A stretch of DNA of 64,000 bases from NCBI RefSeq assembly GCF_021654855.1, contig NZ_AP024202.1, positions 806,001-870,000 of the forward strand, written 5' to 3'. Below are positions 39,437-42,167 of the stretch, in pieces. The notes below the pieces were generated by a model, which was not told where the DNA came from, made no database searches, and saw only the letters and a program-made list of their open reading frames with translations. Both the position numbers and the translations under genes were made by a program. This DNA is from Thiomicrorhabdus immobilis (GTDB lineage Bacteria > Pseudomonadota > Gammaproteobacteria > Thiomicrospirales > Thiomicrospiraceae). Position 1 is the stretch's first letter. Every line of letters starts with the position of its first letter.

Positions 39437-39499
39437 ATTGACTGTGAGCATTTGTGTAATGCATTAATCTACTGATTGATCTTACCGATGCTAGGGTTG

Positions 39500-39549
39500 A
39501 AGCCTCTATAAAGTCACCAGGCCTGGTGACTTTATAGAGGCTTTTTTAA
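39500..39549 (+). terminator. perfect 44-base palindrome with T tract after rlmB
   Basis: Every base from 39500 to 39543 pairs with its mirror (AAGCCTCTATAAAGTCACCAGG and its exact complement), with no spacer. TTTT follows on the plus strand, so it probably works as the rnr-rlmB terminator. The centre is the 12-base repeat ACCAGGCCTGGT. The minus-strand side lacks a T tract. Confidence 0.8.
39516..39527. repeat. ACCAGGCCTGGT palindrome, copy 6 (centre of rlmB terminator)
   Basis: Perfect copy forming the middle of the 44-base palindrome. A one-mismatch copy lies at 39930-39941 in the next gene. Confidence 0.9.
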
Positions 39550-39583: not shown

Positions 39584-40777
39584 TCAAGCCGTATAGATAT
39601 CGCCATTTTCATCAACTTTCACACCAACTTTTTTCAGCGATTCATCCCAACAAGGGCCATCGATACATAGGCCGTCTTCAATATTGAAATAGGCGTCATG
39701 TACCGAGCATTTCATGGTTTTTTCAAACGGGTTCACATCAATCTTATAAGCCTCGTCTAAAGGCACGTCCTGATGTGGACAGTTGTTTAAATAACAACGA
39801 ACACTGTTTTCATATTTGATGAGTACCAACGACTGGCCAGAATCGCTGGTGACCACCATGGTTTTAGCATTGCTCAGCTGTTTCATGTTTGCCAGCGGTT
39901 TGCTGTTAGGACGTTCTTCAAGCAGATTGTCCAGGCCTGGTTGTTGGCATTTTTTGGCAGCGAGTTTATTAGCAAAAATGACGGCATCTTTTAAGTTGTT
40001 CTTTTCTATCAAAGAGTGGATTAGGCCTGCATTGAAGGTATCTCCTGCCGCTAATGTATCTATGATTGGGCTAACGTTTTCAGCCTCTATGTGTTCGATA
40101 GCGGCGTTGATTGGTTTAAACCAAACCCCTTGCTCTCCCCAGGTACAGACCATGTTGACATTGTGTGAGCTTAGGCTTTCAAGTAAAGCTTGGCCGTTTT
40201 CAAACCCTTTGGCTGTTGCATAGTGGTGGGAGAAAATCAGTAGGTTGACGCTGCCAAATAAGGCTTCGATACCTTCTCTAGGTTTTTCCACTTCTAGGGA
40301 GATTGGCTGGTGGGTTAAGAATGTTTTGGCAATATTCAACATGCCGGGTAATTGAGAGGTATTGCGGCCTTCAAAATGTAACCAGTCGTACTCCTCAATC
40401 TCAATTTTGGCAAAAAAATCAAAACTGATTTCAGGCAAATCTCGGTAGTGAACAATAGTACGGTGACCATTTTGGGCGTTTATTGTAACATAAGACGTGG
40501 GTGTACGGCCTTTGATGAACTTTTGGGTATGCTCAGTAGATATATTGCGGGCGTTTAAACCAGAAATAAGCTGCTTGGCTTCACTGTCAGCGGCTACCGT
40601 GGTGCAGATGTCGGTATCGTGTCCTAATTGGTTTAATACATATAAGGTATTGTTTACGTTGCCACCAGTTTCTATATGTTTACTTTGAGCGCGTAATTCT
40701 TCATCTTCTAAAGGATGGTGGTCGACAGTTAATATGACATCGAGCACGGCATTTCCGATACCTAAAATTTTTGACAT
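39584..40777 (-). CDS. PfkB-family sugar kinase fused to a Rieske [2Fe-2S] domain
   Basis: 397 residues from the ATG at 40777 (GGA six bases upstream); three earlier in-frame ATGs are less well placed. Residues 1-290 are a ribokinase/ketohexokinase-type kinase with GGNVNNTLYVLNQLG (38-52) and DTLAAGDTFNAG (240-251), where D246 is the catalytic base. Residues 305-397 form a Rieske-type ferredoxin domain with C333-P-H335 and C357-S-V-H360, the full two-Cys two-His cluster set. Joining a phosphotransferase to an electron carrier in one chain is unusual. Substrate and redox partner are unknown. It faces rlmB convergently and fnr divergently. Confidence 0.85.
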   Translation of the reverse strand: MSKILGIGNAVLDVILTVDHHPLEDEELRAQSKHIETGGNVNNTLYVLNQLGHDTDICTTVAADSEAKQLISGLNARNISTEHTQKFIKGRTPTSYVTINAQNGHRTIVHYRDLPEISFDFFAKIEIEEYDWLHFEGRNTSQLPGMLNIAKTFLTHQPISLEVEKPREGIEALFGSVNLLIFSHHYATAKGFENGQALLESLSSHNVNMVCTWGEQGVWFKPINAAIEHIEAENVSPIIDTLAAGDTFNAGLIHSLIEKNNLKDAVIFANKLAAKKCQQPGLDNLLEERPNSKPLANMKQLSNAKTMVVTSDSGQSLVLIKYENSVRCYLNNCPHQDVPLDEAYKIDVNPFEKTMKCSVHDAYFNIEDGLCIDGPCWDESLKKVGVKVDENGDIYTA

Positions 40778-41061
40778 AGTCATTTCCATCAATAAATTAA
40801 TTTTTAATAGCGTTGCTAAATTCAACAAGAAACCGCTACTTCATTTAGTGGTGGAATTCTAACATAGCCGTTAAAACCTTGCTTTGACTTGTGTTTTTTT
40901 AATAAAAGTGAATAAATCGAAAAAAAACTTGACAAGGTAATAGGCTAACTTAAATTTTAAATGCTATAAAAAGGTTTAATTGTTTAAAGTATCTGGTTGA
41001 AATTTAAGTGTTATATGTAATATTTATAGGGTAATCCATCTGAGTGTTTTTTTGACAGTTC

Positions 41062-41096
41062 TTTTCCACAAAAGCTGTGGATAACTTTGTGTGTAA
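41062..41096. promoter_or_regulatory. DnaA-box pair in the kinase-fnr spacer
   Basis: TTTTCCACA (41062-41070) and TGTGGATAA (41076-41084) are inverted DnaA boxes, both fitting TTWTNCACA, five bases apart. TGTGTGTAA (41088-41096) is a one-mismatch third box. They lie in a 575-base gene-free, very AT-rich spacer (40778-41352) with an A-rich tract at 41286-41310. Apart from promoters presumed for the divergent genes, nothing else was recognised there. Confidence 0.5.
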
Positions 41097-41352
41097 AGTT
41101 GATAAATGTTGCTTAAGTTCTTTATATTAGCTAAAAAATATTAAACTGCCTAAAATTTAAGCAATTGTGTTGTTCGTTAAATTTCGTATGTAAATTGGTT
41201 AAAATTAATAGCCTTATAAGTACAATATAAGTAAATAAATATTAACTAAAGATGACAAACAAAATAAAAGCGATACAATCAACAATATAAAATAAAAATA
41301 AAAATAAAAAATTCGATTGAATAATCGTAACGAAAAAATTCATTGGGCTATT

Positions 41353-42125: not shown

Positions 42126-42167
42126 TTGATTTCAATCAATAAGCCTTATCCATTGCTGTGATTTAAT
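42126..42167 (+). promoter_or_regulatory. FNR-activated class II promoter
   Basis: Perfect FNR box TTGAT-TTCA-ATCAA at 42126-42139, then an extended -10, TG-A-TTTAAT, at 42159-42167. With a start at 42174 the box is centred at -41.5, the standard class II activator position. Confidence 0.65.

Follow-up and report, generated by a model that had tools for sequence, protein, structure and literature searches.

A ketohexokinase-type kinase fused to a ferredoxin-type Rieske domain in Thiomicrorhabdus immobilis and related bacteria

Analysis of a 64,000-nucleotide stretch of the Thiomicrorhabdus immobilis genome (contig NZ_AP024202.1, positions 806,001 to 870,000; hereafter the window) showed that one gene encodes a PfkB kinase of the ketohexokinase (KHK) type joined to a C-terminal Rieske [2Fe-2S] domain of the ferredoxin type. 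The fusion was conserved among relatives, and the link between kinase and Rieske genes in the class Gammaproteobacteria is real, recurrent and specific, and is not obligatory.

The gene ran from an ATG at 40777 to a stop at 39584 on the reverse strand as one unbroken frame (Table 1). The list of open reading frames placed the start at a TTG at 40828; homologues start instead at the ATG at 40777. Both Pfam matches scored above their curated cut-offs. The preliminary description, which had proposed a single chain with a complete PfkB kinase (GGN at residues 38–40 and AGD with Asp246 in place) and a Rieske domain with both ligand pairs, was borne out on all three points. The host genome was a single contig of 2.54 Mb, and its closest named relatives were Thiomicrorhabdus, Thiomicrospira and Hydrogenovibrio, which are sulfur-oxidising chemolithoautotrophs. 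The AlphaFold model of the full protein had a pLDDT of 93.4 and a pTM of 0.77. In this model the linker was mostly without helix or strand; it was longer in Halothiobacillaceae.

Table 1. Coordinates (in the window) of the fusion gene and its features
Feature	Position	Strand	Evidence
KHK-type kinase/Rieske fusion gene	39584..40777	-	Single ORF, 397 aa; fusion kept in same family
PfkB/ketohexokinase-type kinase domain, aa 1–287	39917..40777	-	PF00294 E 3.4e-29; KHK E 1.8e-46; TM 0.91–0.92
Catalytic base Asp246 (= KHK Asp258)	40040..40042	-	Invariant in 115 distinct homologues
Interdomain linker, about aa 288–300	39878..39916	-	Lowest model confidence, pLDDT 78–83 per block
Rieske [2Fe-2S] domain, aa 290–397 as modelled	39587..39910	-	PF00355 E 8.5e-11 over aa 294–378; 3gce TM 0.80
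Cluster ligands Cys333-Pro-His335	39773..39781	-	Invariant in 51 fusions; motif in 106/107 fused loci
Cluster ligands Cys357-Ser-Val-His360	39698..39709	-	Invariant in 51 fusions; motif in 106/107 fused loci
Cys371-x4-Cys376 (GxCxxGPC), second cysteine pair	39650..39667	-	Invariant in fusions and stand-alone relatives
20-bp palindrome, terminator-like	39499..39544		Between convergent rlmB and fusion genes

A six-frame search across 58 relatives recovered this fusion as an open frame in the other genomes of the genus and family that were searched, with identities of 44–87%, except for two broken copies that carried a frame change in the Rieske part (G018) or in the kinase part (G007). A scan of GTDB contigs added fusions in Sulfurivirga, Halothiobacillus, Guyparkeria and uncultured relatives. 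The search for other proteins with this domain order, which had been suggested beforehand, thus yielded fusions in Thiomicrospiraceae, in Halothiobacillus/Guyparkeria and at one isolated gammaproteobacterial locus. When 51 fusions with identities as low as 35% were aligned, the four ligands C333, H335, C357 and H360 proved invariant. The complete pattern CxH..CxxH..CxxxxC was present in 106 of the 107 fused copies (some genomes being counted twice because they occur in two collections), and the exception was the frameshifted G018. The preliminary description had named a frame error and unconserved cluster residues as its weak points. Neither was found, as the frame is open in relatives and the ligands vary only in broken or cut-off copies. 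Since the same stop-free frame recurs in genomes of the same genus and family, the fusion is not a sequencing join. Two genes joined by frame error or misassembly, a reading for which there is nothing beyond the two broken copies elsewhere, is so improbable that it was rejected: collinear open fusions occurred in the other same-family genomes and in Halothiobacillaceae, single-contig genomes included. A 3.2-kb contig labelled as a Lysobacterales MAG (L077) bore a Thiomicrospiraceae-like fusion; the label is probably a binning error.

A search of the PDB showed that the best matches of the kinase domain were all KHK, the animal fructokinase of the PfkB/ribokinase superfamily (E 1.8e-46 to 7.5e-43), followed by ribokinase (5e-14). 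In the NCBIfam search of the fusion protein, all kinase models scored below their own cut-offs. The TM scores of the KHK match (Table 1) were normalised by KHK length. The label "sugar kinase" given beforehand was therefore correct as to a complete kinase and too generic as to type, the best PDB match being human KHK. In the human numbering, which rests on a supplied N-terminus and gave the expected residue at all six positions checked, KHK D15, N42, N45, R141, K174 and D258 corresponded to D13, N40, N43, R138, K165 and D246 of the fusion. These six catalytic or fructose-pocket residues were all invariant in 115 distinct bacterial homologues. Mutagenesis of human KHK-A has shown that D15, N42 and N45 are essential, that R141 and K174 are important, and that D258 is the catalytic base (PMC11332825). 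The bacterial kinase is thus like human KHK in sequence, fold and six active-site residues, while the human enzyme has no Rieske domain. At the beta-clasp dimer contacts, compared in sequence alone over the 115 homologues, the equivalent of KHK Arg108 was invariant and the Asp27 position was occupied by D or N. The catalytic Asp was preceded by Ala243 (40049-40051), giving AAGD instead of the usual GAGD; Ala occupied this position in 13 of 76 distinct fused kinases.

By this resemblance the substrate is likely a ketose, and the reaction is most likely the ATP-dependent conversion of D-fructose or a related ketose to its 1-phosphate, the substrate class being taken from family knowledge. Two further PfkB proteins were encoded in the genome, one HldE-like and one a sucrose-phosphate phosphatase/fructokinase-like fusion; this would make the KHK-type fusion the second ketose kinase encoded there. 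The sucrose-phosphate phosphatase fusion (584 aa, locus L154, about 2451514-2455415 of the host contig, G000:C1) lay near a sucrose-synthase-family glycosyltransferase, and the locus probably serves sucrose as an osmolyte and has a fused fructokinase of its own.

When modelled alone, the Rieske domain had a pLDDT of 93.5 and a pTM of 0.85. Its best fold match was 3gce, a carbazole dioxygenase ferredoxin, and BphA3 and T4moC were also matched (TM 0.75–0.80). The sequence profile of the family found the same ferredoxins and one b6f Rieske protein. With the dioxygenase ferredoxins (BphA3, CarAc, 3gce) and T4moC of toluene-4-monooxygenase, the domain shared the fold and the CxH/CxxH site; however, identity was only about 16–22%, and the fusion Rieske adds the invariant GxCxxGPC pair and the kinase. 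High-potential Rieske proteins of bc1 and b6f complexes have additional disulfide cysteines in both cluster loops (CxHxGC, CxCH) and a membrane anchor. In contrast, the loops of the fusion were CPHQDV and CSVHDA, with no additional cysteines, and its N-terminus was the kinase. From the likeness to ferredoxins and the lack of bc1 loop cysteines, a low-potential cluster in a cytosolic protein is expected according to established family knowledge.

The Cys371-x4-Cys376 pair was common to the fusions and to stand-alone proteobacterial GxCxxGPC Rieske proteins, which belong to the same family by profile and have the same invariant residues but are not kinase-linked. Stand-alone genes of this type were often found beside sfsA-, dksA- or gpsA-like genes. 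The family is widespread, and we know of no function for it. The branch bearing the Rieske domains of the Thiomicrospiraceae fusions (L001-L036) was very long, at 1.45 changes per column; these domains were conserved well inside the family and showed a change from HGA to HDA.

Unlike the ferredoxins of Rieske oxygenase systems, the fusion occurs in a genome without an oxygenase partner: a PF00848 search of the host genome found no ring-hydroxylating oxygenase, which removes the usual ferredoxin partner, and a role as the ferredoxin of a Rieske oxygenase system was rejected. The only other Rieske protein in the genome was a separate bc1-type, PetA-like protein. The domain could still keep an independent ferredoxin job, the kinase merely carrying it. 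It would then donate electrons to a cytosolic reductase or oxygenase, perhaps one that takes the kinase's sugar or its product as substrate, so that two pathway steps were channelled. The ferredoxin-type family, the retention of all redox ligands in the fusion and the stand-alone genes beside many other genes, which indicate a kinase-independent function, all fit such a tethered carrier. On the other side, the conserved neighbours of the pair included no recognisable oxygenase or reductase, and the PF00848 result counts against it as well; we consider this alternative unlikely, though to be taken seriously. The usual ferredoxin role is thus left with no visible client, which favours modulation of the kinase in cis.

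The linkage was investigated in 369 genomes sampled evenly from the class Gammaproteobacteria. The kinase was present in 102 genomes, and all 102 loci were checked with the Rieske profile. Nine were fused (seven from the tally, together with the host genome G000 and G026), 30 had the Rieske gene immediately downstream in the same orientation, one had it upstream at a distance of about 1.2 kb, and in 62 no Rieske gene lay nearby. The spacing of the separate genes was typically -4 to +21 nt. In a control with a different PfkB subfamily of the same class, a Rieske neighbour was found in 0 of 30. Genome-wide, both families occurred in 59 of the 369 genomes, the kinase only in 43, the Rieske family only in 79 and neither in 188, giving an odds ratio of 3.3 (Fisher p 1e-6, genome kinship not corrected for). 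The fusion in two families of sulfur oxidisers and the neighbouring genes in many relatives indicate that the pair probably works together, and the recurrence of the gene pair lends support to the functional link between the two parts that was suspected at the outset. Neither part strictly needs the other, as shown by the 62 kinase genomes with no nearby Rieske gene and the 79 genomes with the Rieske family and no kinase. A general association of PfkB with Rieske proteins was rejected: adenosine-kinase-like PfkB genes directly beside a stand-alone Rieske gene of the same GxCxxGPC family occurred only at two isolated loci (L227:889-2220 and L246:1465-2897), against 0 of 30 in the class sample. 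The L227 pair also adjoined dksA- and gluQ-like genes.

Methylophaga and other Gammaproteobacteria had the same parts in the same order, as two genes there and one here. The best explanation is that the fusion arose from such a two-gene operon, kinase and then Rieske, which is still extant in relatives. At L037 (4446-4449) the two genes were in frame with one stop between them (TAAATG), and five Ectothiorhodospiraceae-type loci (L088, L092, L094, L097, L098) likewise had both genes in the same frame with a single stop between. These pairs likely represent the route to fusion, or remnants of it. The kinase tree placed the Thiomicrospiraceae group, the Halothiobacillaceae group and the isolated gammaproteobacterial fusion L089 apart. 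A constrained tree uniting the fusions of the two families, and not covering L089, was not rejected and scored better (AU p 0.77). The Rieske tree was too short to tell the number of fusion events. The kinase tree suggests between one and three such events.

An old operon pair fused by loss of a stop codon, with the domains acting separately and the fusion giving fixed stoichiometry or stability, would account for the one-stop intermediates, for the many genomes in which kinase and Rieske each occur alone and for the kinase residues: Rieske-linked and unlinked kinases were compared and none was clearly distinguishing. It leaves unexplained why the pair is kept as separate genes in 30 genomes across the class, unless these share locus ancestry, and we regard it as rather improbable.

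The neighbouring fnr gene had been thought to fit a redox theme, and this was not borne out. Genes for rnr, rlmB, fnr, pal and a pepN-like protein flanked the fusion in Thiomicrospiraceae only. Halothiobacillaceae and Methylophaga had other neighbours (in Methylophaga adk- and tmcA-like genes, named by eye), and the Rieske gene was the only partner of the kinase seen across lineages. No FNR box with 0–1 mismatch was present in the intergenic region between fnr and the fusion (40778-41316). Since the neighbourhood is family-specific and the box is absent, the fnr argument carries no weight, and fnr was rejected as a functional neighbour. A perfect FNR-box match, TTGATTTCAATCAA, was located at 42126-42139, downstream of fnr and upstream of pal. 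The whole window contained 89 FNR-box-like matches (up to 2 mismatches), compared with 61 expected and above each of 100 shuffles; this excess may reflect composition or coding sequence.

Both domains are probably functional, as neither the ligands nor the catalytic residues have been lost. The mechanism that we favour, tentatively, is that the cluster gates or modulates the kinase in cis, gating being an idea already raised in the preliminary description. The protein would be a cytosolic KHK-type ketose kinase with a ferredoxin-type Rieske module permanently attached; the cluster would exchange electrons with a redox pool of the cytosol and, through its redox state or simply by being present, would tune the kinase. 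In an autotroph with a carbon flow that relies on respiratory reductant, such tuning could bring the phosphorylation of free ketose into line with the redox or iron state of the cell. Conservation of both active sites in the fusion, the recurrent linkage (9 fused and 30 adjacent of 102, control 0 of 30) and the co-occurrence of the two families in the 369 genomes argue for gating. Against it, 62 of the 102 kinase genomes had no adjacent Rieske gene and 43 had no detectable family member, so a Rieske partner is dispensable for the kinase; the Rieske family was common without the kinase (79 genomes); no linkage-specific residue emerged in the kinase that might mark docking or allostery; and the orientation of the domains in the model is uncertain, pTM being 0.77 despite a pLDDT of 93. 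The cluster might also be an iron or oxidative-damage sensor, or purely structural, its presence and not its redox state keeping the kinase active. Invariant ligands would be needed equally in that case, and such a sensor could include the invariant CxxxxC next to the site; the kinase is evidently functional without a Rieske domain in relatives, and this explanation is very unlikely.

In the openly accessible papers searched, no description of a ketohexokinase–Rieske fusion was found, and PfkB and Rieske appeared together there only in papers resembling omics or gene lists. Both families are known, and their combination is new as far as the literature searches reached. To our knowledge, the role described so far for Rieske clusters is electron transfer, within oxygenases, cytochrome complexes and enzymes acting on nitrite or arsenite. 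The conserved and recurrent pairing with a KHK-type kinase suggests use of such a cluster in carbohydrate metabolism, where it may act as a switch responding to redox or iron or take part in a redox step on a ketose, and gives the GxCxxGPC Rieske family a candidate functional association. If the cis-modulation that we favour applies, the fusion could be a redox-gated ketohexokinase of sulfur-oxidising autotrophs, and the separate-gene pair of other Gammaproteobacteria the same switch built from two proteins, a fuller reading that is possible and held with more reserve.
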